This document shows positions 1-15,253 of a stretch of DNA of 64,000 nt, one piece after another. The position numbers and the translations under genes are program-made. Within the stretch, counting starts at the first letter, position 1. Every line of letters starts with the position of its first letter. A model generated the notes under the pieces. It saw nothing but the letters and a program-made list of their open reading frames with translations. It was not told the origin of the DNA and did not search any database. This stretch comes from a bacterium (GTDB lineage Bacteria > Pseudomonadota > Alphaproteobacteria > Rhizobiales > Aestuariivirgaceae), in contig JALHQC010000020.1 of NCBI GenBank assembly GCA_022842165.1, positions 1 through 64,000 on the forward strand, given 5' to 3'.

Positions 1-309
1 TTCTTCGAGCAGCGCATCCGCCACCGGGCCGATATTGCCTTCGTCGGTCGAATCGAAGGTCGAGCAGTATTTGAAGAAGATCTGTTTCGCGCCATGGCGC
101 TTCAGCCAGCGGCAGGCTTCGAGCGATTGCGCCACCGCATCAGCCACGGGAATGGTGCGCGATTTCAGCGCCACCACGATCGCATCGGCCTGTGGCGCAT
201 CACCTTTGGGGATGCCGATCGTCTGCACCGTGTGCATGCCGCGCCGCGTCAATGTGTTGGCGAGATCGGTGGCGCCGGTGAAGTCGTCAGCAATGCAACC
301 CAGAATCAT
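1..309 (-). CDS. Four-carbon acid sugar kinase (DUF1537), 5' part only; possible 3-oxo-isoapionate kinase
   Basis: This is the N-terminal 103 residues of a DUF1537 (OtnK/OiaK-type) kinase; the rest lies beyond the left edge. The start MILGCIADDFTGATDLAN carries the ADDFTGA signature of this family, which phosphorylates acid sugars such as 3-oxo-tetronate or 3-oxo-isoapionate with ATP. The ATG at 309 sits 4 nt after the stop of the upstream lactonase-like gene, so the two are surely cotranscribed. The family is clear. The OiaK role is inferred from the neighbouring ApnL-like and ApnO-like genes: in the known D-apionate pathway a DUF1537 kinase acts after the oxidoisomerase. OtnK-type tetronate kinase activity is the alternative. 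Confidence 0.85.
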   Translation of the reverse strand, partial: MILGCIADDFTGATDLANTLTRRGMHTVQTIGIPKGDAPQADAIVVALKSRTIPVADAVAQSLEACRWLKRHGAKQIFFKYCSTFDSTDEGNIGPVADALLEE

Positions 310-312
310 GCG

Positions 313-2277
313 TCAGGCGGCCCTTATCCGGACCACAGCATAAGGGCCAAGTTCCACAGATGAAACCTTCTTCAAGGCCTCGCCTGCGGAGGAGAGATAA
401 TCGGGCTTCGCGGTGATGGTGCCGAAGTTGCGGTCGCTCAAGCTGTGCATGACTGCGGCACCGGCAAAGCCCGAGACCTTCACCTTCTGCGGTTCGGACG
501 TGAGATTGGCGAGCCAGAGTTCGGGGCCATCATCTGAACGATGTGCCAAGGATGCGACGGTAGACGGCGCACTCGACTGCGTCTCGATACGCTTGTTGCC
601 GCTCGCATCGGCAAGGCCTGCCAGCACATGATATGTGGGGTAGACTTCGGCCTTCGTGCCGTCGAAGCCCGGCTGCTTGTACGAGGCCTTGCGGTAGATC
701 GCGCCTTGCGGGCCGGTGGCGGAACCCAGCGCCACGCTGTCGAGCCCGCCCTTCGCCATCGCGGCGGCAAGGCCCATGTTCCAGGCGGCGGCGAAAAGCC
801 CGCGCTGGCGTGGGTCCATGTCGGAGAGGCAGACGCGGCCGTTGTCCGGATTGGGTGCCACCGCCGCGCCATAGGGATTGTCGCGGCAGGGAATAGAGGA
901 GGGGCCGAGGTGATAGGGCGCCTTGCCGATCATGTTGCGGGTCGACGCGATGATGGACGGGATCGCTTCCAGCGTCTCCATCACCGACAAGTCATCCGCC
1001 GCATGAACGATGGGGCAGACCGTGTGGGTGATGAAATCGAACACGCCCTTCGGCACCGGCTTGCGGTTCAACTCCGTGAAGAAGGACAGCATGCCGCCGC
1101 CCAGCGGAATATTTGGAAAGGCCTCGCGCACGGCTGATGCCATTTCCTCATAGCTCGGCCCCCACGGCCGCGGCGTGTTGGGCTGGAAGGATTTGAGGTC
1201 GTGCATTTGGCTGACGATGATCGCGTCCGGCATGTAGTCCGCCGCGCGCAATTCGCTGGCAATGGCACGTATTTCATCCTCAGCCGAAGCCTTGGCGGGC
1301 AGCACGATTTCGAGTGCTGAAGGTATGCCGGTGCGTTCGCGCAATTCGCGATAGGCCGCGGCAGCTTCTGCCTGGCCCTTCTGGCGTCCGTCGATCTGGC
1401 AGATCAGGTGCGCGGGTGAGGCGTATTCGATGAGGTCAGAAGCTTCCAGCGCGGCCTGTGCTTCCGCCATGCCAACGCCGGTGGCAATCGAGGGCATCAC
1501 GCCTTTTGTGCCGCCCATCTCGACGGTGATGGCGCTTCCAGATTTCGCCGCCTTCTTCGCTGCGGGCTTGCCTTCGATGGTGAGCGTGATCGACTGCGTG
1601 AAACTTTCGCCCTTCGGCAGCGTGTAGGGCCAAGGGTCGAGCAGCGAGCACACATAGGTCTTGTAGGAGGCATCCATCCAGTTCCGATGGTCCTCCATCT
1701 CGAACTTGTTGCCCTCCATCAGCACGGTTGCGGTGACGCCCGGCATGACGGTGTGCTTCAGCGAGCGGATTTCGAAGACCGGCTGGCCGGGGCTGATGAA
1801 CTTCGGGAACCGCGACTTCCGCTTCTTGCCGTCGGTGTGGACGATCTCGACCGGTTCATTGACGACGCCGACGAGGGGATGCAGCACCACGAAGCCCGAG
1901 CGGTTGGTGAGGAAGTCGGTCAATGGCGTCGCCGTCACCTGGAACAGCACGGTGCCGTCGGCCTTGCCCTCGATCCGGGCCGCATAGCGCATGCCCTGTT
2001 CCTTGTCTTTCGCGGTCGCCGTGTAGCTGACGGTGAAGCCGTCCTTGCCCTGCCGGACTTTCAGGCCCTCGATCACCGGCCCATAGGTGCCCCAGTTCTT
2101 GTCGCGCAGCAGGTAGGCGATGCCGCGCAGCACTTCGACGCCCCGATACTTGATGTAGCGGAGCGCGCCATTGTCCAGCATGGCGGTGATGTGCCCAGCC
2201 TCGAGGATGCGGCGCTTGCCGTCCGGCACGTCGGTTCCGTAGAGCTTGACGGCGCGGGTTACTGCGGCTTTCGCCAT
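313..2277 (-). CDS. apnL: Probable D-apionate lactonase (ApnL-like)
   Basis: A 654-residue protein without signal peptide. The N-terminal third is probably beta-rich and contains the stretch RDKNWGTYGPVIEGLKV; the C-terminal half (about 260-560) looks like an alpha/beta glycosidase-like barrel. I recognise the overall pattern (gene length, NWGTY region, position beside an ABC transporter and DUF1537 kinase) as that of D-apionolactonases, which open D-apionolactone to D-apionate in the cytoplasm. The start is supported by GGGAGG just upstream. The ABC ATPase gene stops 18 nt upstream and the kinase gene starts 3 nt downstream, so it is mid-operon. Family recognition is from memory; an uncharacterised glycoside-hydrolase-like enzyme is the alternative. 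Confidence 0.55.
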   Translation of the reverse strand: MAKAAVTRAVKLYGTDVPDGKRRILEAGHITAMLDNGALRYIKYRGVEVLRGIAYLLRDKNWGTYGPVIEGLKVRQGKDGFTVSYTATAKDKEQGMRYAARIEGKADGTVLFQVTATPLTDFLTNRSGFVVLHPLVGVVNEPVEIVHTDGKKRKSRFPKFISPGQPVFEIRSLKHTVMPGVTATVLMEGNKFEMEDHRNWMDASYKTYVCSLLDPWPYTLPKGESFTQSITLTIEGKPAAKKAAKSGSAITVEMGGTKGVMPSIATGVGMAEAQAALEASDLIEYASPAHLICQIDGRQKGQAEAAAAYRELRERTGIPSALEIVLPAKASAEDEIRAIASELRAADYMPDAIIVSQMHDLKSFQPNTPRPWGPSYEEMASAVREAFPNIPLGGGMLSFFTELNRKPVPKGVFDFITHTVCPIVHAADDLSVMETLEAIPSIIASTRNMIGKAPYHLGPSSIPCRDNPYGAAVAPNPDNGRVCLSDMDPRQRGLFAAAWNMGLAAAMAKGGLDSVALGSATGPQGAIYRKASYKQPGFDGTKAEVYPTYHVLAGLADASGNKRIETQSSAPSTVASLAHRSDDGPELWLANLTSEPQKVKVSGFAGAAVMHSLSDRNFGTITAKPDYLSSAGEALKKVSSVELGPYAVVRIRAA

Positions 2278-2295
2278 GGAGGCCTCCCAATCAGG

Positions 2296-3369
<1,074 letters not shown>

Positions 3370-3373
3370 GTAC

Positions 3374-4213
3374 TCAACCCTTGACTGCGCCCATCGAGAT
3401 GCCGCGCACCAGATAGCGTTGCATCACCGCGACGGTGAAGAAGACAGGAATGGTGCCGAGCACCGACATGGCGGCGATCTTGGCCCAGAAGTTCGACTGG
3501 CCGCCGAAATAATGCGTGACCTGCACGGTATAAGTGGTGACCTCGGTGCGCGTGAGGACGAGCGCGAAGAGGAAATCGTTCCACGCGAAGATGAAGGTGA
3601 AGACGGCGGTGGCGAACAGGCCGGAACGCGCCATCGGCAGCACCACCTTCCACAGCACCTCCCAGCGCGTGCAACCATCGACCAGTGCCGACTCTTCAAG
3701 TTCCAGCGGAATGTCCTCGATATAGCCGCGCATCATCCAGATGACATAGGGCAGGCTGAACGCGGTGTAGAGGATGATGAGGCCATGATAGGTATCGACC
3801 CAGCCGAAATAGACATAGAGCAGGAACAGCGGAAACACGATGGCGACGGGCGGCATCATGCGCTGCGAGATGATCCACACGGCCAGGTTTTCGCCGCCCG
3901 TCTTGAAGCGCACGAGGCTGTAGGCCGCGATGGTGCCGAAGATCATGGCGAAGAAGGTGGAGACCGACGCCAGCACCAGGCTGTTCCACACCGACCAGGC
4001 ATCGCCATCCTTGAACAGCACGGCATAATTGTTGAACTGGATCGAGGCCGGGTACCAGACAGGCGGGAAAGCGAAGATTTCATCCGGCGTCTTGAACGAG
4101 ATGATGAACAGCCAATAGACCGGGAAGACGAAGACGATGACCAGCAGGACTGCGATGAGATAGCGCCATGCGAGGCGCACATCCTTGCGGCGGTGAAAGG
4201 GAAGCGCGCTCAT
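3374..4213 (-). CDS. Sugar ABC transporter permease, MalG type
   Basis: Inner-membrane permease, 279 residues, about six transmembrane helices. The EAA loop that contacts the ATPase reads EESALVDGCTRWEVLWKVVL, and the protein ends in the MalG-family tail GISMGAVKG. The start ATG at 4213 overlaps the stop of the first permease gene (ATGA), which fixes it; the same frame stays open far upstream but only over antisense of the neighbouring gene. It pairs with the permease at 4210-5091. Membrane core and partner contacts are as known for MalFGK2-type importers. Confidence 0.92.
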   Translation of the reverse strand: MSALPFHRRKDVRLAWRYLIAVLLVIVFVFPVYWLFIISFKTPDEIFAFPPVWYPASIQFNNYAVLFKDGDAWSVWNSLVLASVSTFFAMIFGTIAAYSLVRFKTGGENLAVWIISQRMMPPVAIVFPLFLLYVYFGWVDTYHGLIILYTAFSLPYVIWMMRGYIEDIPLELEESALVDGCTRWEVLWKVVLPMARSGLFATAVFTFIFAWNDFLFALVLTRTEVTTYTVQVTHYFGGQSNFWAKIAAMSVLGTIPVFFTVAVMQRYLVRGISMGAVKG

Positions 4214-5091
4214 TTCGCCAGCCCCATGCGGCGGATGGCCCAGGTACAGACGATCGTGAGGATGGCGATGACGAGGAAGGCGATCGCCGCCGTATAGCTC
4301 GTCTCGAACTGCTTGAAGCCCTGCACATAGGCGTAGATCGAGATCGTCTCGGTCTTGGTGCCGGGGCCGCCCTGGGTCAAGGCCCAGATGATGTCGAAGA
4401 TGCGGAACAGGTCCAGCCCGCGGATCAATATGGCGATGGCCATGACCGGCCAGATGGCGGGCAGCACGATGTAGCGGAAGCTGCGCCAGAAGCGCGCGCC
4501 ATCGATCTCGGCGGCTTCCGTCTGCGACTTGTCGACGTTGGACAAGGCTGCCAGCAGGATCAGGAACATGAAAGGCGTCCACTGCCAGATTTCGCAGAAG
4601 ATGATGGCGGGATAGACGAGTGTGGGGTTGATCGTCCACAGCGCATTGACGCGCTCGCCCGCGAACCAACCGAGGATCTGGTTGATCGGGCCATACTTGT
4701 TGTCGAACAGCAGACGCCATGTGGCGCCGGCGACGATGGGCGAAATGATGGTGGGCAGCACGAGGAGTGCGATGAAGATCTGCCGGCCCGGCATCTTTTC
4801 GAGGAAGAGATAGGCCATGGCCAGGCCCAGCAGCAGTTCGATGGGTAGAGCGATCGCCGTGATCAGCAGCGTATGCGCCAGCGACCACCACAGGCGCGAA
4901 TCCTTGAACAGGTTGGCGTAGTTGTAAAGGCCTGCAAACGAGGTGTCCGTGTCCATCATGTCGATCCGCATGAAGGAGACGATCAGCGAATAGATCAGCG
5001 GAAACAGGCCGACGAGCAGCAGCAGGAAGATCGCCGGCGTCAGCAGCCAGTATTTGAAATTGCGGTCGGGATGAACGGCGATGGCGGGCAT
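4210..5091 (-). CDS. Sugar ABC transporter permease, MalF type
   Basis: Inner-membrane permease of 293 residues with about six predicted helices and an EAA loop EAAEIDGARFWRSFRYIVLP. It forms a heterodimer with the MalG-type permease, whose start overlaps its stop by 4 nt. A 144-nt gap holding a multi-hairpin repeat separates it from the binding-protein gene, so it is probably translated from a processed part of the same transcript. The C-terminus continues as a final hydrophobic helix and ends RRMGLAK. Confidence 0.92.
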   Translation of the reverse strand: MPAIAVHPDRNFKYWLLTPAIFLLLLVGLFPLIYSLIVSFMRIDMMDTDTSFAGLYNYANLFKDSRLWWSLAHTLLITAIALPIELLLGLAMAYLFLEKMPGRQIFIALLVLPTIISPIVAGATWRLLFDNKYGPINQILGWFAGERVNALWTINPTLVYPAIIFCEIWQWTPFMFLILLAALSNVDKSQTEAAEIDGARFWRSFRYIVLPAIWPVMAIAILIRGLDLFRIFDIIWALTQGGPGTKTETISIYAYVQGFKQFETSYTAAIAFLVIAILTIVCTWAIRRMGLAK

Positions 5092-5110
5092 GGGTGCTCG
5101 GGGTCAGGGG

Positions 5111-5228
5111 GCCCTCATCCGCCCTGTCGGGCACCTTCTCCCATGCTGCGCACGGGAGAAGGCATTTGCGGCAATAGCCCCTTCTCCCGTCGAAGATGGG
5201 AGAAGGTGGCCGAAGGCCGGATGAGGGC
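5111..5228. repeat. Mosaic palindromic repeat between binding-protein and permease genes
   Basis: Outer arms GCCCTCATCCG (5111-5121) and CGGATGAGGGC (5218-5228) are perfect complements. Inside them CACCTTCTCCC (5132-5142) pairs with GGGAGAAGGTG (5198-5208), and GGGAGAAGG (5154-5162) pairs with CCTTCTCCC (5180-5188). The transcript can therefore fold as one long stem or as alternative hairpins. Elements of this make-up are widespread between genes in rhizobial genomes. In this position it would protect the 3' end of the upstream binding-protein message. Confidence 0.85.
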
Positions 5229-5235
5229 TCTTGTT

Positions 5236-6693
5236 CTACATCTTCGGGTAAGCGCCGGACTTCGACGCCCAGTCGGCATAGACGGCCTTCTGCTTGTCGG
5301 TGCCGATCTTGTCGGTGATTGCATCCCACTCGGCGGCGGCGGTATCGAGGATGGCCTTGGGGTCCTCGCCCGCCCACAGCTTCGAGACCGACTGGCGCAG
5401 CACTTCCTCGTACTTGTCGGTCTGCAGCAGTGACAGGTCGAGAAGACCGTTGTTGGCACCGTCCTGAAGCGCCTTGAGATAGTCTTTCGCTTCGGGCCAC
5501 AAGGCAGCATAGCCCGGATCGGTGAAGTGCGAGTCGCGGAAGGGGTCGCGCAGCGCATAGGGGAGCTTCACGCGCTCAAGGCTGGTCGCTTCGCTGTTCA
5601 GCCATTGGATGAACAGATAGGCCGCTTCCTTGTTCTTCGAGGCGGAGGAGACCGAGAGGCAGAAGCCCGCGGCCAGCTGCGGGTGCCCGCCTGGCGTCAT
5701 CGCATAGCCAACCTTGCCGGCGATCGTGGACTTCGGAACCCAGCTCATCACTTCCTGGTCGGTGCCGTAGCTGGCGGCCCAGCGGCCATAGGGCGGCCAC
5801 GAGATCGTCATCGCGGTCTGGCCCTGCAGGAAGGCCGCGAGGTTTTCGACGAAGCCCCATTGCTCGACGCCCGGAGGCGCAAACTTGTTTTCGGCGACCC
5901 AGTCGGTCAGAACCTTGACGCCCGCCTCCGAGTTGATCGTCGCCTTCATGGTGTCCGCATCGAAGAACTTGCCGCCCTCATTGCGGAAGCGCTCCTGGAA
6001 CATGAAGTTGCCGTAGCCCGACTCGCGGAAGAAGGCCGCGCCGTAAAGCTTGTCCTTGTTCATCTCGCTGATGAGCGCGGCGACCTGGTCGAAATCCTTC
6101 CAGTTCGTCGGCGGCACCGGCATGTCGGCGCCGTGCTTTTCCTTGTAGGCGGCCTGCAGCGCGGGATCGTTGAGAACGTCGGTGCGGTAGTACATGACGA
6201 AGACGTCGCCATCGTCGGGAAGTCCGAAGATCTTGCCGTTCACCTTCATCTGGTTGTCGCGGTAGGTCGGCGCGATCTTCATCAGTTCGTCGCGGTAGCC
6301 GTATTTGTCGACGTAGGAATCGAGTTCTTCGAGCGCGCCGGCATTGGCAAGGTCGGGCATCCACGACGGGATGACGTTCAGCGCGTCATAGGCGCCCGCA
6401 CCCGAACGGAAGTCCTGCATGATCTTGGTGAACATTTCGGCCACCGGAACCTCGACGACTTTAACGTCAATGCCGGTCAGCTCTTTCCACTTCGGGCCCG
6501 AGAAGTTCAGGGGATCGAGCGATTGCAGGCCCGCTTCCCAGACGATGGTGATCGTCTGGCCCGAAAACTGCTTTGCCGCTTCGACCGCCGCCGAAGCGCC
6601 GTCAGCCGCAAAAGCGGCACGCGGCATCATTCCGGCGGAGCCCGCAAGACCGGCAGCGATGCCGATCTTGCCTACGTCACGTCTTGTAACCAT
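5236..6693 (-). CDS. ABC transporter substrate-binding protein (family 1, MalE type), apionate-cluster
   Basis: Periplasmic solute receptor, 485 residues. The N-terminus MVTRRDVGKIGIAAGLAG then a hydrophobic stretch and AFA-ADG looks like a twin-arginine export signal cleaved near residue 30. The mature part has the two-lobed extracellular solute-binding fold, with typical segments such as QTITIVWEAG and PTNWKDFDQVA. GGGAGGAAG precedes the start. It lies 78 nt downstream of the start side of the leftward operon's dehydrogenase stop-to-start gap and 144 nt before the permease. It should deliver its ligand to the 3374-5091 permeases. The ligand cannot be read from sequence; the operon suggests a branched sugar acid, its lactone or a glycoside. 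Confidence 0.9.
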   Translation of the reverse strand: MVTRRDVGKIGIAAGLAGSAGMMPRAAFAADGASAAVEAAKQFSGQTITIVWEAGLQSLDPLNFSGPKWKELTGIDVKVVEVPVAEMFTKIMQDFRSGAGAYDALNVIPSWMPDLANAGALEELDSYVDKYGYRDELMKIAPTYRDNQMKVNGKIFGLPDDGDVFVMYYRTDVLNDPALQAAYKEKHGADMPVPPTNWKDFDQVAALISEMNKDKLYGAAFFRESGYGNFMFQERFRNEGGKFFDADTMKATINSEAGVKVLTDWVAENKFAPPGVEQWGFVENLAAFLQGQTAMTISWPPYGRWAASYGTDQEVMSWVPKSTIAGKVGYAMTPGGHPQLAAGFCLSVSSASKNKEAAYLFIQWLNSEATSLERVKLPYALRDPFRDSHFTDPGYAALWPEAKDYLKALQDGANNGLLDLSLLQTDKYEEVLRQSVSKLWAGEDPKAILDTAAAEWDAITDKIGTDKQKAVYADWASKSGAYPKM

Positions 6694-6771
6694 GTCTTCC
6701 TCCCATGTGTGAACGGCAGCGGAAGGCGGCCATTCGTTACTCCCCGGCTCCTGATGGGCAGGGAATTTCGC

Positions 6772-7815
6772 TTATCCGGCGCGCTTCGCGAAACGCTCCA
6801 GCTTCTGTTTGAACCCCGGTTGCTCAAGCACATTGCGGTTGACCACGCCGCGCGGCACCTGGCCTTTCTGAACGTCCAGCACGGCCCGCACATCCGCTGC
6901 GCCATTTCCCGCAAAGCACTGGTCGGTCCAGCACAGGGCGTGGGGAGCGGCGATGATGTTGTCGAGCTTCAGGATCGGATCGTTCGGGTCGGTCGGTTCA
7001 ACTTCAAACACATCAAGGCCGGCGCCGGCAATGCGGCGCTCCTGCAGCACCTTTGTCAGCGCCTTCTGGTCGACGATGGGACCGCGCGCCGTGTTGATGA
7101 AGAAAGCCGTAGGTTTCATCAGCGCCAGGCGTTCGGCATTGACGATGTGATGGGTCTCCGGCGTCAGCGGGCAATTGACGGTGAGGATGTCGGCGCGCCG
7201 GAACAGCTCCTCGATGCCGACAAGCTCGATGCCGAGTTCGGCGGCGACCTTCGGATCGGCAAAGGGATCATGCGCGATGAATTTCATGTCGAAGGGCTTT
7301 GCGAGCCGGAACATCTCGGCGCCGATATTGCCGACGCCGAGCGAGCCCAGCACCTTATCCACGAGACCCACACCCATGTGCTCGCCACGCGCGGCAAATC
7401 CCGGCGGGCCCTGCCGCGCCAGCTTGTCCTTCACCATCATCTTTCCCGTCAGCGCCAGGATGAAGGTGATGATCGAAACGGCAACCGGCCGCCGCACGCC
7501 GTCAGGCGTGATGACGAGCGCGATATCATTTGCCGTGCAGGCTGGCACGTCGACCGTGTCATAGCCGACGCCGAAACGCGCAATGACGGCGAGCCGGCCA
7601 CTTTTGGGCACACTGCCCGCTTCAAACCGCTGGCCAAGCAGGATCAGCGCATCGAAATCTTCCAGCTGATCGCCGCGCAGCGGATTGGCGTTTTCGAGAA
7701 ACACCATTTCAACATTGGGCGCAGATTTCAGCGGTTCGAGATCGAAATCCGGGAAGGTCGGCGTGCCGTCGGCCTTCCTGAAATCCCCAGACAGCGCGAC
7801 TCGGTACTTGCTCAT
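6772..7815 (-). CDS. D-isomer-specific 2-hydroxyacid dehydrogenase
   Basis: A 347-residue NAD(P)-dependent dehydrogenase of the PGDH/GRHPR group. The nucleotide fold GSLGVGNIGAEMFRLAKPF lies near residue 150-170. Catalytic residues are the Arg in INTARGPIVD, the Glu in DVFEVEP and the His in APHALCWTD. The start at 7815 overlaps the aldolase stop (ATGA). It would reduce or oxidise a 2-keto/2-hydroxy acid made in the pathway of this operon; glycolate/glyoxylate or hydroxypyruvate chemistry would fit the known products of D-apionate breakdown, but that is inference. The longer in-frame extension to 8076 is antisense to the aldolase frame and was rejected. Confidence 0.88.
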   Translation of the reverse strand: MSKYRVALSGDFRKADGTPTFPDFDLEPLKSAPNVEMVFLENANPLRGDQLEDFDALILLGQRFEAGSVPKSGRLAVIARFGVGYDTVDVPACTANDIALVITPDGVRRPVAVSIITFILALTGKMMVKDKLARQGPPGFAARGEHMGVGLVDKVLGSLGVGNIGAEMFRLAKPFDMKFIAHDPFADPKVAAELGIELVGIEELFRRADILTVNCPLTPETHHIVNAERLALMKPTAFFINTARGPIVDQKALTKVLQERRIAGAGLDVFEVEPTDPNDPILKLDNIIAAPHALCWTDQCFAGNGAADVRAVLDVQKGQVPRGVVNRNVLEQPGFKQKLERFAKRAG

Positions 7816-8582
7816 CCCTTCGCTCCCTCGCGAATGGTTTTCGCTGCTGCCGCCAGCCCGTCGCGCAGCACCCACACATCGCCCGAATAGCAGATGAAGT
7901 CGAAGCCCTGCTTCCAGTAGGAAATGCCTTGCTCGGTATTGGGAACGAGGCGGCCCAGCGATTTGCCGTGCTTCTTCGCTGCGGCGATGATGCGGTCCAT
8001 CGCGGCCTCGAATTTCGGATTGGCGAAGTCGCCGGGAATGCCGAGCGATACGGAAAGATCGAAATGGCCGATCCATAGCGCGTCCACGCCATCGATTGCG
8101 GCGATCGCATCGACGTTCTTGGCGCCATCCGCCGTTTCGATGAGGCAGATGACCGTGGTGCGCTTGTTGGCATTGGCGAGCGCTTCGGTGACGGGCGCGG
8201 CGCGATAATTGTCATGCGCCATCTGCAGGCCCACGCCGCGCTTTCCTTCCGGGTGATATTTGACCGAATCGACCATGCGCTGCGCCTGTTCAGGCGTCGA
8301 AATCATCGGTGCGATGAGGCCCTCGGCCCCCATGTCGCAAGCCCTGGCCAGCATGTCATTCTCTTGCGCTGGAACCCGGACGATGACCGGAACGCCCGCC
8401 GCCTCGAAATAGCGGATGGAGCTTTTCAGCGTTTCGAAGGAAAATCCCGAATGCTCCATGTCGAAGAACGCGAAATCGAGGCCTGCGGCCTTCAGGATGT
8501 GGCCGATGCCCGGTGTCGCGAATTCCACGATGAAATTACCGACCTTCAGCTCTTTCGAGCGGGTCATTTCCTTCAGTCCCAT
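7812..8582 (-). CDS. HpcH/HpaI-family class II aldolase
   Basis: A 256-residue aldolase related to 4-hydroxy-2-oxoheptanedioate and 2-dehydro-3-deoxyglucarate aldolases. Seen motifs are FAFFDMEHSGFSFET near the N-terminus, CLIETADGAKNVDAI (metal-binding Glu) and LWIGHFDLSVSLGIPG, all typical of the family. These enzymes cleave hydroxy-ketoacids to pyruvate or a relative plus an aldehyde, using a divalent metal. I chose the ATG at 8582 because AAGGGACGG lies about 10 nt upstream; GTG at 8609 and ATG at 8567 are possible. It is the first gene of the leftward operon, divergent from the ApnO-like gene. Confidence 0.85.
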   Translation of the reverse strand: MGLKEMTRSKELKVGNFIVEFATPGIGHILKAAGLDFAFFDMEHSGFSFETLKSSIRYFEAAGVPVIVRVPAQENDMLARACDMGAEGLIAPMISTPEQAQRMVDSVKYHPEGKRGVGLQMAHDNYRAAPVTEALANANKRTTVICLIETADGAKNVDAIAAIDGVDALWIGHFDLSVSLGIPGDFANPKFEAAMDRIIAAAKKHGKSLGRLVPNTEQGISYWKQGFDFICYSGDVWVLRDGLAAAAKTIREGAKG

Positions 8583-8632
8583 TCGGCGTCCGTCCCTTGA
8601 GGTGTTCACCCGGTTTGGCCCGGGTCGACTGA

Positions 8633-8660
8633 TTGACTTGTCATACCAGTAGCATGTAAG
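8633..8660 (+). promoter_or_regulatory. Candidate sigma-70 promoter and GntR/FadR-like operator in divergent region
   Basis: TTGACT (8633-8638), a 16-bp spacer and TGTAAG (8655-8660) give a plausible rightward promoter 30 nt before the ApnO-like start. Within it CTTGTCATACCAG (8637-8649) is an imperfect palindrome of the kind bound by FadR-subfamily GntR regulators of sugar-acid genes. A regulator here could control both divergent units; none is encoded inside the window near it. Confidence 0.45.
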
Positions 8661-8689
8661 CAGACCCGAACGCTATCCGAGGTTTCTGC

Positions 8690-9517
8690 ATGACGTCAAT
8701 CGCTCTCTTTGGTGCCGGCGGCAAAATGGGTCACAGATTGTCCCGCAATCTCAAGGACTCACGCTTCACCGTGCGTCATGTCGAGGTGAGTGAGGCGGGC
8801 CGCGCCCGGCTGGCGCAGGATTTCGGCATTCAATGTGTTGACGCCGCAACCGCCTTGCAGGATGCGGAGGTGGCCGTGCTGGCGGTGCCCGATACCCATA
8901 TCGGCAAGGTGGCGCAATCGATCCAGCATCTTCTGAAGCCCGGCACGATGGTGGTCGTCCTCGATGCGGCGGCCCCCTTCGCGGGCCATTTGCCGGAGCG
9001 CCCCGACCTCACCTATTTCGTCACCCACCCCTGCCATCCGCCGATCTTCAATGACGAGACCGATCCGCAGGCGAAGCTCGACCGTTTTGGCGGCGTTGCG
9101 GCGAAACAGCATATCGTCTCGGCCCTCATGCAGGGGCCGGAGGAACACTATGCGCTGGGCGAAGAGGTGGCCCGCACCATCTGGGCCCCCGTCATGCGCT
9201 CGCACCGGGTGACGGTCGAGCAGATGGCGTTGCTGGAGCCGGGCCTTTCTGAAACCGTCGTCGCCTCTCTATTGGACGTCATGCGCGAGGCCATGGACGA
9301 GGTGGTGGCCAGGGGCGTGCCGGCGGAAGCGGCGCGGGACTTCCTGCTGGGCCACATGAACATTCTGGGTGCGGTCATCTTCAAGGAGCAGCCCGGCGTG
9401 TTCTCGGATGCCTGCAACAAGGCGATCCAGTTCGGCAAGCCCATGCTGATGCGCGACGACTGGAAACAAGTTTTCGAGCCCGACGAGATCGCCGCCTCGA
9501 TCCGCCGCATTACCTGA
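8690..9517 (+). CDS. apnO: Probable D-apionate oxidoisomerase (ApnO-like)
   Basis: A 275-residue NAD-dependent enzyme. The N-terminal Rossmann motif GAGGKMGHRLSRNL is followed by a beta-strand with AVPDTHIGKV. The all-helical C-terminal half resembles the phosphogluconate/ketol-acid reductoisomerase type; segments such as YFVTHPCHPPIFNDE and DFLLGHMNILGAV recall the ApnO family, which oxidises and isomerises D-apionate to 3-oxo-isoapionate. It is transcribed away from the transporter operon across an 80-nt divergent control region. Assignment combines family memory with the ApnL-like and DUF1537 neighbours. A related semialdehyde or hydroxyacid dehydrogenase is the alternative. Confidence 0.65.
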   Translation: MTSIALFGAGGKMGHRLSRNLKDSRFTVRHVEVSEAGRARLAQDFGIQCVDAATALQDAEVAVLAVPDTHIGKVAQSIQHLLKPGTMVVVLDAAAPFAGHLPERPDLTYFVTHPCHPPIFNDETDPQAKLDRFGGVAAKQHIVSALMQGPEEHYALGEEVARTIWAPVMRSHRVTVEQMALLEPGLSETVVASLLDVMREAMDEVVARGVPAEAARDFLLGHMNILGAVIFKEQPGVFSDACNKAIQFGKPMLMRDDWKQVFEPDEIAASIRRIT

Positions 9518-9598: not shown

Positions 9599-10258
9599 AT
9601 GATTGAAGCCATCCAATCGCTGTTTTCGGCCGAAGCCATGTGGGCGCTGGGCCAGGTCATACTGATCGACCTCGTGTTGGCGGGCGACAATGCCGTGGTG
9701 ATCGGCCTTGCGGCCGCCGGCCTGCCCAAGGACCAGCGCAACAAGGCCATCCTCGTCGGCATCATCGCGGCGACCGTGCTGCGCATCGGCTTCGCCAGCA
9801 TCACCACCCAGCTTCTGCAGGTTCTGGGCCTCATCCTCGTGGGCGGAATCCTGCTGCTCTGGGTGAGCTGGAAAATGTGGCGCGAACTTCGCGATGGCCA
9901 TGGCGAGGCCGAGGGGGCGGAAGCCGTTACCGGCGTCGACCTCAATGCCGATGGCACGGTGGCGGGCGGCGCACCCCGGAAGACCTTCAAGCAGGCAGCG
10001 TGGCAGATCGTCATCGCCGACGTTTCGATGTCGCTCGACAATGTTCTGGCTGTCGCCGGCGCGGCGCGCGACCATCCCACCGTGCTGGTGATCGGCCTCA
10101 TCCTGTCCATTGCGCTGATGGGTCTTGCGGCCTCCTTCATCGCCAAGCTTCTCCAGAAGCATCGCTGGATCGCCTATGTGGGCCTCGCCATCATCCTTTA
10201 TGTGGCGCTCGAGATGATCTATCGCGGCATACTCGAAGTCTATCCTGTGGTGACCTGA
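9599..10258 (+). CDS. TerC/YjbE-family integral membrane protein
   Basis: A 219-residue protein with about six to seven membrane helices. The two internal half-repeats carry the family's acidic motifs DLVLAGDNAVVIGLA (about 22-36) and ADVSMSLDNVLAVAG (about 141-155), whose Asp/Asn residues are thought to line a metal ion (manganese) path. A hydrophilic loop of about 50 residues separates the halves. AGGAG stands 6 nt before the ATG. Its stop overlaps the start of the next gene (TGATG), so it is translationally coupled to a sugar-isomerase gene, an unusual partner for a metal transporter. Confidence 0.88.
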   Translation: MIEAIQSLFSAEAMWALGQVILIDLVLAGDNAVVIGLAAAGLPKDQRNKAILVGIIAATVLRIGFASITTQLLQVLGLILVGGILLLWVSWKMWRELRDGHGEAEGAEAVTGVDLNADGTVAGGAPRKTFKQAAWQIVIADVSMSLDNVLAVAGAARDHPTVLVIGLILSIALMGLAASFIAKLLQKHRWIAYVGLAIILYVALEMIYRGILEVYPVVT

Positions 10259-11271
10259 TGCTGAATTTCGACATTGACCGTTTCCTGCGGATCGAGGCCG
10301 GCGCCGTGGCCCTGGCGCCCGCCATTCACGAGGCGATAGGAAAATGCCTCCGGAACGGCGCGAAGAACATCTTCTTCCTTGGCACCGGGGGTGCGGCGAT
10401 CCTCATGCAGCCGGCAAGCCTGCTGTTGCAGCGGCGCTCGGGCTTTCCGGCCCATATGGAAATCGCCGCGGAATTCGTGGCGGGCGGGCATCGGGGGCTG
10501 GGACCTCACTCGATCGTGGTGATCCCGTCGCTTTCCGGCACCACCAAGGAGTCGGTCGCAACCCTCGACTACTGCAAGGACAAGGGTGCGACGATCATCG
10601 CGCTCGTCGGCCACAAGAATACGCCGCTGGGGCAGAAGGCCGACCATGTCTTCGTGAATTTCGCGGAAGACGACACGTCCTCCGAAAGCTTCTATCTGCA
10701 ATCGCTGCTGATCGCGCTGTCGGTGATGGCGCACCGCGGCGAATATCCGGACTATGACAAGACCGTTTCCGAGCTTTCAACGCTGCCGCGCCACCTCGTG
10801 GCGGCCAAGCAGATGTTCGAACCGGAGGCCGAAAGGATCGCCACGGCCTTCACCAGCGAGCCCTATCACATTATCACCGCGGCGGGGGCAGGCTGGGCGC
10901 AGGGCTGGTATTACGGCATGTGCATCTTGGAAGAGATGCAGTGGATCAGGACGAGGCCCGTTCACGCGGCGGACTTTTTCCACGGCACTCTGGAACTGGT
11001 CGAGAAGGGCGTCAGCGTCGTGATCATGCATGGCGAGGACGCCTATCGGCCCCTGACCCTGCGTGTGGAGAAATTCGCCCGTCAGTACACGGACAAGGTG
11101 ACGGTGCTCGATACCGCGAGCTTCGAGATGCCGGGTGTTTCGCAAGCCACTCGCGCACTGATCTCGCCCGTCATCCTCGCCACCATCCTCGAGCGGCTTT
11201 CGGCCCATCTCGAGGTGAAGCGCAACCATCCGCTGACGACGCGCCGCTACTACAAGAAGGTCGCCTACTGA
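10258..11271 (+). CDS. SIS-domain sugar isomerase / fructosamine deglycase-like (FrlB type)
   Basis: A 337-residue cytoplasmic protein with two SIS domains. The first contains IFFLGTGGAAILMQ and the Ser/Thr-rich phosphosugar loop IPSLSGTTKESV; the second contains the segment VHAADFFHGTLELVEKGVSV, which in FrlB-like deglycases and glucosamine-6-phosphate synthases carries active-site residues. Such proteins isomerise or deglycate phosphorylated amino sugars or fructosyl-amines. The start overlaps the TerC stop. The next gene is a PuuE-like deacetylase 16 nt downstream. The substrate is not determined; a fructosamine or amino-sugar compound is a guess from the family. Confidence 0.8.
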   Translation: MLNFDIDRFLRIEAGAVALAPAIHEAIGKCLRNGAKNIFFLGTGGAAILMQPASLLLQRRSGFPAHMEIAAEFVAGGHRGLGPHSIVVIPSLSGTTKESVATLDYCKDKGATIIALVGHKNTPLGQKADHVFVNFAEDDTSSESFYLQSLLIALSVMAHRGEYPDYDKTVSELSTLPRHLVAAKQMFEPEAERIATAFTSEPYHIITAAGAGWAQGWYYGMCILEEMQWIRTRPVHAADFFHGTLELVEKGVSVVIMHGEDAYRPLTLRVEKFARQYTDKVTVLDTASFEMPGVSQATRALISPVILATILERLSAHLEVKRNHPLTTRRYYKKVAY

Positions 11272-11287
11272 ACGGCAGGGGGACGCC

Positions 11288-12193
11288 ATGACCTATCCGC
11301 GTGACATGAAGGGCTATGGCCGCGCCATTCCCGATCCGAAGTGGCCGGGCGGCGCCCATGTCGCCGTGCAGTTCGTGCTGAACTACGAGGAAGGCGGCGA
11401 GAACAACCTCCTTCACGGCGATGCGGCCTCCGAAGCCTTCCTGTCCGAGATCGTTGGCGCCGCGGCCTGGCCCGGCCAGCGCCACTGGAACATGGAATCG
11501 ATCTACGAGTATGGGGCACGCGCCGGCTTCTGGCGGCTGTGGCGCATGTTCACCGCGCGCAGCGTGCCGCTCACCATTTATGGCGTGGCCCATGCGCTGA
11601 TGCGCTCGCCGGATCAGGTCGAGGCCATGAGGGAAGCGGACTGGGAGATCGCCAGCCACGGCCTCAAGTGGGTCGAGCACAAGGACATGCCCGAGGAAGC
11701 GGAGCGCGAGCAGATCGCCGAGGCGATCCGCATCCATACCGAGGTCACTGGCGAACGGCCTCTCGGCTGGTACACCGGGCGCTGCTCGATGAACACCACG
11801 AGGCTGGTGATGGAGGAGGGCGGTTTCCTTTATTCTTCAGATGATTACGCCGATGACCTGCCATACTGGCTGAAGCGGCCCGACGGTAACAAGCACCTCG
11901 TCATTCCCTATACGCTCGACGCCAACGACATGCGCTTCGCGACGCCGCAGGGCTTCAACACCGGCGAGCATTTCTACCAGTATCTGAAGGACTCCTTCGA
12001 TTGCCTTTATGAGGAAGGCAGGCGCGGCAGCCCGAAGATGATGTCGGTGGGCCTTCACTGCCGCCTTGCCGGAAGGCCCGGCCGTGCGCTTGGACTGGCG
12101 AAGTTCATCGACTACGTCTTGTCGCGTGACAGGGTGTGGATACCGCGCCGCATCGACATCGCGCGGCACTGGCATGCAAACTTCGGCGGCTAG
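11288..12193 (+). CDS. Polysaccharide deacetylase-family hydrolase, allantoinase PuuE-like
   Basis: A 301-residue protein that follows the PuuE pattern from its first residues: RDMKGYGRAIPDPKWPGG, then FVLNYEEGGENNLLHGD. It has the NodB fold used for amide or N-acetyl hydrolysis. PuuE proteins (about 308 residues) hydrolyse allantoin without metal. No other purine-degradation gene (allantoicase, urate hydroxylase, ureidoglycolate enzymes) is nearby, and the neighbours are an SIS isomerase, a HisD-like dehydrogenase and a ThDP enzyme. It may therefore act on another cyclic amide or N-acylated compound. Fold is certain; substrate is not. Confidence 0.8.
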   Translation: MTYPRDMKGYGRAIPDPKWPGGAHVAVQFVLNYEEGGENNLLHGDAASEAFLSEIVGAAAWPGQRHWNMESIYEYGARAGFWRLWRMFTARSVPLTIYGVAHALMRSPDQVEAMREADWEIASHGLKWVEHKDMPEEAEREQIAEAIRIHTEVTGERPLGWYTGRCSMNTTRLVMEEGGFLYSSDDYADDLPYWLKRPDGNKHLVIPYTLDANDMRFATPQGFNTGEHFYQYLKDSFDCLYEEGRRGSPKMMSVGLHCRLAGRPGRALGLAKFIDYVLSRDRVWIPRRIDIARHWHANFGG

Positions 12194-12222
12194 TTGCGGT
12201 TTCTTCTGATAATGGATCGGCC

Positions 12223-13548
12223 ATGACCATCAGTTTCCACGATCTCTCGAAGATGACGCGAGTCCAGCGCGACCGCCTGCTGACGCGCACCGAAGGCGAT
12301 CTCTCGTCATACGAGGAGAAGGTGAAGCCCATCATCGCGGCGGTGCGTGCAGAGGGTGACGTTGCACTCGCGCGTTTCGCGAAGCTGTTCGACAAGGCGC
12401 CGGTCGAGGCCCACGAGATCGCCGCGACCGAAGCGGACTTCGACCGTGCCGAGAAGACCCTCGATCCGCAGGTGAAGGAAGCCCTGGACTTCATGTCAGG
12501 ATCGATCCGCCGCTTCCACGAGGACCAGAAGCCGGAAGAGATGTGGTTCCACGAGATCCGCCCGGGGGTTTTCGCGGGCGACCGGACGACACCCATCCCA
12601 TCCGTCGGCTGCTACATTCCGCGCGGCAAGGGAGCGTTCCCTTCGGCAGTGATGATGACCACGATCCCCGCCAATGTGGCCGGCGTCACTGAGATCGCCA
12701 TCGTCACGCCGCCGGGGCCAGACGGCAAGATCGACGATGCGACGCTTGTAGCCGCCCGCATGTCGGGCGTGAGCAAGGTCTTCAAGGCTGGCGGCGCGCA
12801 GGCGATTGCCGCGGTGGCCTATGGCACTGAGACGGTGCCGAAATGCGCCAAGGTGGTGGGGCCGGGAAGCCCATGGGTTGGGGCTGCAAAGCGGCTTCTT
12901 TCGCATGTGCTCGACACCGGCACGCCGGCGGGGCCAAGCGAACTCATCGTGCTGGCGGATGAAACCGCCGATGGCAGGCTGGCGGGCCTCGACCTCATCA
13001 TCGAGTCGGAACACGGGCCGGACAGTTCGGCCTTTCTCGTCACCTGGAGCCGCAAGGTGGCGGAAGACGCGCTGACCGCGATTCCCGAATTCTGGAAGCA
13101 GATGGGCGCGCAGCGCGTGGAATATTCTTCAACCGTACTCGGCGGGCCGATGGGCGGGATCATTCTGGCGCGCGACGAGGATGAGGCGATCGCCTTCTGC
13201 AACGACTATGCACCCGAACATCTGGGCGTTCATTCCGAGGAACCGTTCCAGTATCTCGGCCGCCTGAAAAATGCCGGAGAGATCCTGCTCGGCAAGCACA
13301 CACCGCCGACGCTTGGAAACTTCGTGATCGGCGTCAACCACGTGCTGCCGACGAGCGGTTGGGCCAGGACCGGCTCGCCGCTGACGGTCTATGATTTCAT
13401 GAAGCGCACATCCATCGCCTATGTGACGGGCAAGGGTTATCCGGAACTGGCGAAGCATGCGCAGGTGATTGCCACCTACGAAGGCTTCGATGGTCATGCC
13501 AATGCCGTGTCCGAAACCCGCATGCGGCTCTTGAAGGGAAACAGATGA
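12223..13548 (+). CDS. HisD-family dehydrogenase with altered zinc ligands; likely catabolic, not biosynthetic
   Basis: A 441-residue histidinol-dehydrogenase-family protein (NAD-dependent oxidation of an alcohol to a carboxylate). The catalytic pair APEHL (Glu332/His333) is kept. Aligning by eye to E. coli HisD, zinc ligands Gln259, His262, Asp360 and His419 correspond here to Glu261, His264, Asn366 and His425. Two ligands have thus exchanged amide for acid in a reciprocal way. No his gene is nearby; the gene sits between a deacetylase and a ThDP enzyme, with a 4-nt overlap to the latter. Paralogues of HisD, such as the sulfopropanediol dehydrogenase HpsN, act in catabolism. I used the ATG at 12223 because the family N-terminus begins there. 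Confidence 0.85.
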   Translation: MTISFHDLSKMTRVQRDRLLTRTEGDLSSYEEKVKPIIAAVRAEGDVALARFAKLFDKAPVEAHEIAATEADFDRAEKTLDPQVKEALDFMSGSIRRFHEDQKPEEMWFHEIRPGVFAGDRTTPIPSVGCYIPRGKGAFPSAVMMTTIPANVAGVTEIAIVTPPGPDGKIDDATLVAARMSGVSKVFKAGGAQAIAAVAYGTETVPKCAKVVGPGSPWVGAAKRLLSHVLDTGTPAGPSELIVLADETADGRLAGLDLIIESEHGPDSSAFLVTWSRKVAEDALTAIPEFWKQMGAQRVEYSSTVLGGPMGGIILARDEDEAIAFCNDYAPEHLGVHSEEPFQYLGRLKNAGEILLGKHTPPTLGNFVIGVNHVLPTSGWARTGSPLTVYDFMKRTSIAYVTGKGYPELAKHAQVIATYEGFDGHANAVSETRMRLLKGNR

Positions 13549-15212
13549 GCTTGCGCACGGGCGGTCAGATCCTTGTCGACCAGTTGAAGATTCACGGCAC
13601 GAGCCACGTCTTCTGCGTGCCGGGCGAAAGCTATCTCGCGGTGCTGGATGCGCTCCATGACGCGGAGATCAAGACGATCGTCTGCCGGCAGGAAGGGGGC
13701 GCGGCCTTCATGGCGGAAGCTGCGGGCAAGACGACCGGCAGACCCGGCATCGTGATGGTGACCAGAGGTCCCGGCGCCACCAATGCCTCGCCCGGTATTC
13801 ATGTGGCCTCGCAGGATTCGACACCTCTCATCATGTTCGTGGGCCAGGTGGCGCGCGACATGAAGGAGCGCGAGGCCTTCCAGGAGCTCGACTACAAAGC
13901 GGTGTTCGGCAGCATGGCAAAGTGGGTGGTCGAAATCGACCGTGCCGAACGCATCCCCGAAATTCTCTCCCGCGCCTTCCACGTGGCAACGCAGGGCCGC
14001 CCCGGCCCGGTGGTGATCGCACTTCCCGAGGACATGCTGACCGACAGCGTGGATGTTGCCGATGCGCTGCCCTATGCGCCGGTGGTAATGCGCCCGGGAT
14101 CATCCGACATGGAGGCATTCCAGCGCAGGCTGCTCGCGGCGGACCGTCCGATCGTGCTGGCGGGCGGTTCCGGCTGGAGTGCCGAGGGCGTGGCGGACCT
14201 TGTGCAGTTCGCGGAAAACTTCGAACTTCCCGTCGCCGTGACCTTCAGGCGGCAGATGCTGTTTCCGGCGGACCATCCGAATTTCGCTGGCGACCTCGGT
14301 ATCGGCCCCAACCCGAAACTGCTGCAGCGCGTGAAGGATGCGGATCTTGTAATCCTGCTCGGCGGACGCATGTCGGAAATGCCGTCGCAGAGCTATACGC
14401 TCTTCGACATTCCGGGCGATGGCGCAAAGCTTGTCCATATTCATCCAGGTGCGGAGGAATTGAACCGCGTCTATCGCGCGGGGCTCGGCATTCTGGCGAC
14501 GCCAACGGCTTTCGCGGAAGCTGCGGCAGCATTGCCGAAGCCCAACCGCGTGAAGTGGAGTGGTGCTGCAGCCACTGCACATGGTGACTATGTGGTGTGG
14601 AGCGATCCGGCCCCAATCCGAACCGCTGGCGCCGTGCAGATGTCGCAGGTGATGGCGCATCTGGTCGACGTGATGCCGGCGGACACGGTCTATTGCAATG
14701 GTGCGGGAAACTACGCCACATGGGTGCATCGTTTCTGGCCCTTCCGCGCCTTCGCCTCGCAGCTGGCGCCGACCTGCGGCTCGATGGGCTATGGCGTTCC
14801 GGCTTCCGTCGCGGCGAAGGCGCTTGATCCGGAACGTGCGGTGATGGCCTTCGCCGGCGATGGCTGCTTCATGATGAACGGACAGGAATTCGCGACCGCC
14901 ATCCAGTATGATCTGCCCATCATTGTCGTCGTCGTGGACAATGGCATGTATGGTACCATCCGCATGCATCAGGAGCGCGAATATCCGGGCCGTGTATCGG
15001 CCACGCAATTGCGCAACCCCGATTTCGCCGAACTCGCCCGCGCCTATGGCGGCCATGGCGAGACGGTGCGGAAGACGGAGGATTTCGCCGCTGCATTGGA
15101 ACGCGCCAGGGCCAGCCGCAAGGCCGCGATCATCCACTGCCTGATTGATCCCGAAGCGATCACGCCAAGCCGCAGCCTGTCGGAGATCAGGGATGCGGCG
15201 CTGAAGGGTTAG
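13545..15212 (+). CDS. Thiamine-diphosphate-dependent enzyme, acetolactate synthase-like
   Basis: A 555-residue ThDP enzyme with the three-domain arrangement of acetohydroxyacid synthase. The cofactor-activating Glu50 is in CRQEGGAAFMAEAAG, a central domain runs from about 190 to 330, and the ThDP/Mg motif is AGDGCFMMNGQEF (near 440-452) followed by VVVDNGMYGTIRMHQ. Homologues include acetolactate synthases, glyoxylate carboligase, sulfoacetaldehyde acetyltransferase and decarboxylases. No IlvN-like small subunit is adjacent and the upstream gene is the HisD-like dehydrogenase (ATGA overlap). It may therefore decarboxylate or ligate a keto acid or aldehyde made by that enzyme. That is inference. 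Confidence 0.85.
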   Translation: MSLRTGGQILVDQLKIHGTSHVFCVPGESYLAVLDALHDAEIKTIVCRQEGGAAFMAEAAGKTTGRPGIVMVTRGPGATNASPGIHVASQDSTPLIMFVGQVARDMKEREAFQELDYKAVFGSMAKWVVEIDRAERIPEILSRAFHVATQGRPGPVVIALPEDMLTDSVDVADALPYAPVVMRPGSSDMEAFQRRLLAADRPIVLAGGSGWSAEGVADLVQFAENFELPVAVTFRRQMLFPADHPNFAGDLGIGPNPKLLQRVKDADLVILLGGRMSEMPSQSYTLFDIPGDGAKLVHIHPGAEELNRVYRAGLGILATPTAFAEAAAALPKPNRVKWSGAAATAHGDYVVWSDPAPIRTAGAVQMSQVMAHLVDVMPADTVYCNGAGNYATWVHRFWPFRAFASQLAPTCGSMGYGVPASVAAKALDPERAVMAFAGDGCFMMNGQEFATAIQYDLPIIVVVVDNGMYGTIRMHQEREYPGRVSATQLRNPDFAELARAYGGHGETVRKTEDFAAALERARASRKAAIIHCLIDPEAITPSRSLSEIRDAALKG

Positions 15213-15220
15213 TTGCGGTC

Positions 15221-15246
15221 CCCCCTCTCCCGCAAGGGGAGAAGGA
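15221..15246. repeat. Short GC-rich hairpin between convergent genes
   Basis: TCTCCC (15226-15231) and GGGAGA (15237-15242) form a small stem in a CCCCTCTCCC...GGGGAGAAGG context that resembles the inner part of the repeat at 5111-5228. It lies in the 41-nt gap between the converging ThDP-enzyme and SorC genes and may act as a two-way transcription stop, though there is no T-run. Confidence 0.45.
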
Positions 15247-15253
15247 AGAAACC

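Follow-up and report, generated by a model that had tools for sequence, protein, structure and literature searches.

Gene content and order of the operon

Apiose occurs in rhamnogalacturonan II and in numerous plant glycosides, and the described bacterial routes rely on ribose-type importers and, for apionate, on ApnO with RuBisCO-like or other decarboxylases. We analysed a window of DNA comprising the first 64,000 bases of contig C20 (JALHQC010000020.1; 64,984 bases) in the draft genome of an alphaproteobacterium of the Aestuariivirgaceae (117 contigs), at the left edge of which lies an operon with an ApnL-family lactonase, an ATP-binding cassette (ABC) importer, an HpcH-family aldolase and a 2-hydroxyacid dehydrogenase, next to a divergent gene for an ApnO-like oxidoisomerase:

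1 to 309, minus strand: OtnK-type (3-oxo-tetronate) kinase, DUF1537, N-terminal 103 amino acids; the remainder lies on contig C56
313 to 2277, minus strand: ApnL-family lactonase, long form, here named ApnL', 654 amino acids (NF049900, 632 bits)
2296 to 3369, minus strand: UgpC/MalK-type ABC ATPase (NF008653, 446.4 bits; cut-off 432)
3374 to 4213, minus strand: ABC permease, MalG/UgpE side (PF00528; start checked)
4210 to 5091, minus strand: ABC permease, UgpA side (PF00528; closest NCBIfam models GlcT and UgpA)
5236 to 6693, minus strand: family-1 (MalE-type) binding protein (PF01547, 112.3 bits; twin-arginine N-terminus recognised by eye)
6772 to 7815, minus strand: D-2-hydroxyacid dehydrogenase (HADH; PF02826/PF00389), its start overlapping the HpcH stop
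7812 to 8609, minus strand: HpcH/HpaI-family aldolase of a subfamily of its own, with a GHFDLS motif (PF03328)
8690 to 9517, plus strand: ApnO-like oxidoisomerase (PF16896, 251.7 bits), divergent from HpcH

An earlier note on this DNA had described a D-apionate-type module here, and all the genes that it named are present. Transcription on the minus strand runs through HpcH, HADH, the binding protein, the two permeases, the ATPase, ApnL' and the start of the kinase, which begins 3 bases past the ApnL' stop. Overlaps of 4 bases join HpcH to HADH and permease to permease (ATGA, both in the window), as well as the kinase to the OtnC gene that follows it on C56. The gene set is far from chance, because neighbouring pairs share these ATGA overlaps and the order recurs in many genomes.

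The left edge of the window is the end of C20, where the assembly interrupts the kinase. Family searches of the own genome located the remainder on C56, the final 119 bases of which are identical to the first 119 bases of the window, and the joined parts form a single frame of 419 amino acids. The C56 part alone passes the model of the 3-oxo-tetronate kinase OtnK (NF043035, 503.7 bits; cut-off 350), and the next gene encodes a class II aldolase-family decarboxylase, OtnC, above its family cut-off (322.7 bits); the operon therefore continues with OtnK and OtnC in place of OiaK and a RuBisCO-like protein. Two parts of the earlier note were thus overturned: the DUF1537 kinase, which it had taken for the kinase of the apionate route, was rejected as OiaK (NF042436, only 113 bits; cut-off 700), and a RuBisCO-like gene, predicted just left of the window, was ruled out by reading C56, where the OtnC-type decarboxylase stands instead.

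Protein families and the rest of the genome

ApnL' matches NF049900 over its full length (profile 2–593 of 595), and the suggestion of an ApnL-like lactonase is borne out at the level of the family, although 632 bits lies beneath the 750 required for the equivalog. Scores of 585–652 were obtained for seven further members in relatives, and of 1045 and 1064 for two classical ApnL proteins. In an alignment of 49 sequences, E402 and other columns are invariant; no position in the barrel is fixed differently in 4 classical and in 26 HpcH-linked proteins, and the one group-specific position, residue 131, lies outside the barrel in a comparison with just four classical sequences. ApnL' had no sequence relative of solved structure, and its fold matches were glycoside hydrolases, which are uninformative on the reaction. 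The ApnO-like oxidoisomerase was confirmed, with E 5.7e-128 to PDB 5t57, which we take to be a characterised ApnO, and 78% identity to a protein of an apionate-type cluster in Rhizobium etli. It is 78–79% identical to the ApnO proteins of L042, L046 and L051, and so belongs to the same family as the ApnO found beside OiaX or classical ApnL.

Among the two additional enzymes, HADH keeps R239, E268 and H287 (numbered from the frame start at 7800) in 40 of 40 aligned sequences, and HpcH keeps H53, R78, E158 and D184 in 41 of 41; these are presumably the catalytic Arg/Glu/His and His/Arg/Glu/Asp sets, respectively. At the place where five solved aldolases in the alignment have GPSD, GPAD, GPRD or GAAD, the motif of HpcH is invariably GH[FM]D; to judge from these residues, it appears active, yet forms a separate subfamily. 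The closest named relatives of HADH are glyoxylate reductases and phosphoglycerate dehydrogenases. The importer is of the MalE/UgpC class (CUT1), with a family-1 binding protein, two permeases and a MalK-type ATPase with OB_MalK/TOBE domains. The binding protein (5236–6693) had no close relative of solved structure, the best being 4rya (E 3.2e-13), which is too distant to infer the ligand.

For comparison, the cluster on plasmid pC of R. etli CIAT 652 consists of rbcL-like, OiaK-like, tpiA, rpiB and ApnO genes, a ribose-type importer, an oxidoreductase, ApnL, and DhaK- and DhaL-like genes. Its ApnL scores 1064 (cut-off 750), its rpiB product 254.9 with the D-erythrulose-4-phosphate isomerase model (cut-off 240), and its kinase 467.5 with the OiaK model (cut-off 700). 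In the genome of the window, RuBisCO-family matches occur on contigs C15 and C6, and none on C56 or C20. The C15 protein passes the OiaX cut-off (776 bits against 700) and is accompanied by a GntR-type regulator and an OiaK-like kinase at 454 bits, under the OiaK cut-off of 700; this shortfall means little, since the R. etli kinase beside classical ApnL is also under it. The C6 protein reaches 45.7 of the 700 bits for OiaX and is nearest to the model of 2,3-diketo-5-methylthiopentyl-1-phosphate enolase (methionine salvage), under its cut-off. Thus a RuBisCO-like gene, absent beside the kinase, is present elsewhere in the genome, and in two congeneric genomes (G004, G025) ApnO, a Gfo/Idh-type dehydrogenase and OiaX adjoin the same module. 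C15 also encodes L-threonate dehydrogenase LtnD (456.3 bits; cut-off 350) followed by 2-oxo-tetronate isomerase OtnI (348.7 bits; cut-off 325). Inside the window lie the only ApnL match and the only close ApnO of the genome.

Conserved neighbourhoods in relatives

We analysed 61 genomes, the own and 60 relatives, mapping 20 neighbourhoods and then 80 loci from named records; these 80 are the best of 591 confirmed ApnL matches, and the sample leans toward the form found in the window. An ApnL match was present in 29 of the 61 genomes. A recurrent run of GntR, HpcH, HADH, binding protein, two permeases, ATPase and ApnL' was observed in Aestuariivirga, Bradyrhizobium, Mesorhizobium, Dongia and others; the window and its nearest relatives have ApnO in the position of GntR. 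The importer has diverged further in Mesorhizobium, where the binding protein is at ~45%, and HpcH and HADH remain at 65–79%. Several betaproteobacterial loci keep the importer and ApnL'; in L080, L083, L084 and L097, HpcH and HADH are more distant (40–52%) and lie some kb away.

Neighbour counts were taken from the 55 of these best 80 loci that extend at least 7 kb before ApnL and at least 5 kb beyond it, at thresholds of at least 50% for HpcH and at least 55% for HADH, so that the distant betaproteobacterial pairs are not scored as present. HpcH occurs in 34 loci and HADH in the same 34, never one alone; the family-1 binding protein occurs in 41, ApnO in 12, OtnK and a ribose-type ATPase in 10 each, and an OiaX-like gene in 8.

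Several loci combine the run with genes of other routes. In L104, GntR, a RuBisCO-like gene, OiaK, ApnO, HpcH and HADH follow one another in this order on one strand, and in L103 a RuBisCO-like gene and OiaK precede the operon; these two RuBisCO-like proteins are under the OiaX cut-off (456.9 and 432.9, respectively) and, from their scores, may be of the transcarboxylase type. L060 (G004) and L066 (G025) hold the module with ApnO, OiaX and the Gfo/Idh-type dehydrogenase in one locus, the dehydrogenase of G004 being 62% identical to its R. etli counterpart. L073 contains the whole set in a row, ending with OtnK (594.7), OtnC (311.5) and 2-oxo-tetronate isomerase (344; cut-off 325), all above cut-off. 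L-threonate dehydrogenase comes after OtnC in L071, and D-erythronate dehydrogenase lies beside OtnC on the opposite strand in L072, a locus of Dongia deserti that combines the core genes of the run with OtnK and OtnC. Aestuariivirga litoralis KCTC 52945 has the core genes together with ApnO and OiaX.

A small LsrG-like protein of the ABM fold (~100 amino acids) is encoded at most 112 bases from HpcH in 20 of the best 80 of 591 loci, mostly between HpcH and GntR (for example, L153:9630–9935), and between ApnL' and OtnK in L094. Among 85 sequences searched, 25 contained it (two of them covering one and the same place), and it was not found in the window or in the part of C56 that was read. Two members tested scored 38 and 41 bits with the LsrG model (cut-off 135), with E 5.3e-9 to PDB 2gff. 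LsrG moves a carbonyl along a hydroxyketone, and by this analogy the LsrG-like protein is a possible 2-/3-oxo-tetronate isomerase.

Co-occurrence across genomes and plasmids

Presence was compared in 37 congeneric genomes, including the own; the presence sets were entered by hand, that of ApnL' omitting G012, G016, G020 and G028 (shorter 49–54% ApnL matches) and that of ApnO omitting a 51% ApnO-like protein in G005. HpcH was found in 18 of 20 genomes with ApnL' and in 0 of 17 without (p = 1.2e-8); for OtnK, counted from 65% identity upward, the figures are 15 of 20 and 0 of 17 (p = 3.1e-6; both values uncorrected for kinship). Neither ApnO (13/20 versus 6/17; p = 0.1) nor OiaX (12/20 versus 6/17; p = 0.19) tracks ApnL'; these two track each other, OiaX being present in 18 of 19 genomes with ApnO and in none of 18 without. 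Six genomes that are 94–100% complete (G002, G005, G010, G017, G024 and G026) have ApnL' and HpcH and neither OiaX nor an ApnO of at least 76%, and four of them (G005, G010, G017 and G024) carry OtnK. Conversely, ApnO and OiaX are present, and ApnL' and HpcH absent, in six congeneric genomes.

Over all 61 genomes, a close HpcH occurs in 22, and 21 of these also match ApnL. In G040, the one exception, a run holds HpcH, HADH, an ATPase, an aldehyde-dehydrogenase-like gene, OtnK and OtnC (L142, G040:C11). OtnI co-occurrence cannot discriminate, because OtnI is too common (46/61). In a plasmid collection of 72,556 records, ApnL matched 236 records, and HpcH matches at E 1e-60 or better fell in six records, which are the six best ApnL records, with both genes at most 6 kb apart. 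In the two plasmid records read, those of M. ciceri pMESCI01 and Bradyrhizobium sp. CB82, a free-standing operon ends at ApnL'; their annotations call the lactonase "hypothetical protein", HpcH "aldolase/citrate lyase family protein" and HADH "NAD(P)-dependent oxidoreductase". On an ApnL tree (49 rows, quick method; states of the window and L051 set by hand), HpcH presence changes at least 6 times, so the link between HpcH and ApnL is old or repeated, with no direction assigned.

Proposed pathway and alternatives

The linked and recurrent gene set, with its family assignments and co-occurrence, is a real, widespread variant of apionate-type catabolism; from it we infer the ligand, the HADH and HpcH reactions, and their feeding of the OtnK arm. 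We tentatively propose, giving it somewhat less than an even chance, that the operon of HpcH, HADH, importer, ApnL', OtnK and OtnC imports and degrades D-apionate or apionolactone, or a near-identical C3-hydroxymethyl acid, with an aldolase exit of its own. The MalE/UgpC-class importer would take up the ligand and ApnL' would open the lactone ring, apionolactone being suggested as its substrate by membership of the ApnL family. HADH would then oxidise C2 to give 2-oxo-apionate, and cleavage of C3–C4 by HpcH would release formaldehyde, leaving the enediolate of 2-/3-oxo-tetronate. Isomerisation by OtnI, whose gene lies on another contig of the genome, and in many relatives perhaps also by the LsrG-like protein, would supply 3-oxo-tetronate, from which OtnK and OtnC would form dihydroxyacetone phosphate and CO2.

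Several observations speak for the proposal: OtnK, OtnC and, on C15, OiaX pass their cut-offs; L073 has the whole set in a row, and the own genome an LtnD-OtnI pair; ApnL' is tracked by HpcH and OtnK and not by ApnO or OiaX, with six near-complete genomes holding ApnL' and HpcH without close ApnO or OiaX; HpcH and HADH always occur together at the well-flanked loci and share a run with ApnO, OiaK and a RuBisCO-like gene in L104; the six plasmid records with HpcH are the best ApnL records; and the ApnL barrel shows no switch. The order of the steps is suggested by chemical reasoning from the enzyme classes. Since the operon encodes a 2-hydroxyacid dehydrogenase and an HpcH aldolase but lacks a dehydratase, the substrate should have hydroxyls at C2 and C4; retro-aldol cleavage of the 2-oxo acid would give 2-oxo-tetronate only with OH and CH2OH both on C3, and if the CH2OH is C4, that acid would be apionate and the co-product formaldehyde. 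Since the enediolate is common to 2-oxo- and 3-oxo-tetronate, and the latter is the OtnK substrate, the lactonase, HADH, HpcH, isomerase, OtnK and OtnC would form one line. Excerpts of PMC7610986 describe formaldehyde as an aldol partner of the HpcH-family RhmA, and excerpts of PMC12540250 a route LtnD-OtnI-OtnK-OtnC ending in dihydroxyacetone phosphate. The own genome would thus have two exits from one uptake and lactonase step, the aldolase arm and the known arm through ApnO, beside the operon, and OiaK-like/OiaX on another contig. In its complete form, D-apionate would be broken down without a RuBisCO-like protein, through NAD-dependent oxidation, formaldehyde release by the GHFDLS-type HpcH and a tetronate trunk (OtnI or LsrG-like protein, OtnK, OtnC), behind a MalE-type importer, in one portable alphaproteobacterial operon that is plasmid-borne in some rhizobia; that all of this holds together we consider somewhat unlikely.

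Several observations weigh against the aldolase proposal. The p-values assume independent genomes, ApnL' falls short of the ApnL equivalog cut-off, and OtnK and OtnC could simply serve L-threonate, LtnD and OtnI being in the genome and LtnD or D-erythronate dehydrogenase lying near OtnC in some relatives. At the thresholds applied, G002 and G026 carry ApnL' and HpcH but lack ApnO, OiaX and OtnK, and in Bradyrhizobium and Mesorhizobium the operons stop at ApnL' (the operons alone having been read in these two genera, and whole genomes not searched), so that the HpcH product needs another fate in all of these. Speculatively, where OtnK is absent, a second cleavage could yield hydroxypyruvate, which HADH would reduce to glycerate. 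No formaldehyde genes were recognised by eye among neighbour clusters present in at least 4 of the best 80 of 591 loci, in 8 of which one aldehyde-dehydrogenase-like cluster occurred. The single FrmA near ApnL' (L044) is uninformative for the aldolase route, because FrmA is housekeeping (50/61 genomes). For D-apiose dehydrogenase, the own genome had no close match, the best being 42%.

Three other explanations were weighed. The operon could be a tetronate module, importing L-threonate, D-erythronate or their lactones, in which ApnL' is a tetronolactonase, HADH or LtnD forms 2-oxo-tetronate, OtnI, OtnK and OtnC complete the breakdown, and HpcH has a side role such as hydroxypyruvate chemistry. 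OtnK and OtnC above their cut-offs, the LtnD-OtnI pair in the own genome, and LtnD (439.5 bits; cut-off 350) and D-erythronate dehydrogenase (378.1; cut-off 325) adjoining OtnC in relatives agree with this. However, HpcH and HADH accompany ApnL even without OtnK, which is nearby in only 9 of the 34 well-flanked HpcH loci (from the best 80 of 591), the lactonase belongs to the ApnL family with no group-specific switch in its barrel, and HpcH is left without a clear job; we regard a tetronate module as unlikely.

It is rather improbable that the known apionate route works here alone, with ApnL' and ApnO feeding OiaK and OiaX on the other contig, HpcH and HADH peripheral, and OtnK and OtnC for threonate. 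Six near-complete genomes retain ApnL' and HpcH without a close ApnO or OiaX, and ApnL' tracks neither within the genus, although ApnO is divergent from HpcH in the window, which also holds the sole ApnL and close ApnO of a genome with OiaX above cut-off on C15, and module, ApnO and OiaX share one locus in G004 and G025. A linear aldonic acid, of which HADH would oxidise C2 (pentonate or hexonate), HpcH would release hydroxypyruvate and an aldehyde, and HADH would reduce the hydroxypyruvate, would suit the nearest named HADH relatives, and hydroxypyruvate is accepted as donor by HpcH aldolases according to excerpts of PMC7610986. Such a substrate leaves unexplained both OtnK, OtnC and OtnI in the same run and the links to ApnO, OiaK and RuBisCO-like genes, and is quite improbable.

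Comparison with described systems

The D-apionate pathway was reportedly laid out by Carter et al. in 2018 as ApnL-ApnO-OiaK-OiaX. The same pathway is given in excerpts of PMC6302742 and PMC11747546, and by the latter strain LCG007 grows on D-apiose and has an annotated set from the lactonase to 3-oxo-isoapionate-4-phosphate decarboxylase. With this pathway and the R. etli cluster, the window shares an ApnL-family lactonase, ApnO (78%) and OiaX, the last elsewhere in the genome. It differs in that its ApnL is of the long form and scores under the model cut-off, and that OtnK and OtnC replace OiaK and OiaX. Two further differences had been proposed in the earlier note and were upheld: the importer is of the MalE/UgpC type, whereas a ribose-type importer accompanies classical ApnL in R. 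etli, and the added HpcH aldolase and HADH mark a variant of the described route.

With the L-threonate/D-erythronate pathway LtnD-OtnI-OtnK-OtnC (Zhang et al. 2016, as cited in excerpts of PMC12540250), the operon has in common a kinase and a decarboxylase above the family cut-offs, with OtnI and LtnD in the genome; it differs in having a lactonase, HpcH, HADH and a family-1 importer, and LtnD and OtnI do not adjoin it. The predicted HpcH reaction is the reverse of that of ketopantoate hydroxymethyltransferase, or of RhmA with formaldehyde (excerpts of PMC7610986), in that a 2-oxo acid whose C3 is fully substituted would lose formaldehyde, although the window enzyme is of the HpcH and not the PanB family. 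The titles and abstracts searched, which did not include Carter et al. 2018, contained no HpcH route for apionate; the aldolase exit would be a new idea, without a claim that it is absent from print. If the proposal is true, apionate use is under-predicted, since an aldolase and a different importer accompany an ApnL-family lactonase in a widespread operon; named enzymes are available for direct assay; and a natural aldolase would run in reverse a reaction now being engineered by chemists, freeing formaldehyde from a fully substituted carbon.

Other genes in the window and related loci

Beside ApnO and a TerC gene, the window carries, at 10255–16246, a SIS deglycase-like gene, then, recognised by eye, polysaccharide-deacetylase-, histidinol-dehydrogenase- and TPP-enzyme-like genes, and a DeoR/LsrR-type regulator; the first four of these are likewise kept beside ApnO in G001 (L036). 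By eye, 16724–38781 contains more family-1-type importer gene sets, a PfkB kinase and PDH-like genes, and a 451-amino-acid protein at 26360–27715 matched no NCBIfam model at 1e-10. Just past OtnC on C56 (L009:15327–17347) lie an SDR gene and a 3-hydroxy-D-aspartate-aldolase-like gene (188.6 bits; cut-off 690), the latter also coming after the module in several Aestuariivirga loci. The 42% match mentioned above was obtained with the Gfo/Idh-type dehydrogenase of G004 and lies on C42 (L152, C42:24000–35000) beside ribose-type permeases and an SDR gene (by eye); it had no NCBIfam match at 1e-40, and neither did the query protein itself. The G040 run carries a glycine-betaine-type transporter (by eye). 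In L143 (G019:C96) and L044, an additional HpcH-HADH-GntR set adjoins a ribose-type importer, and in L115 two ApnL genes (37% and 40% to that of the window) flank HpcH, HADH and importer genes on either side.

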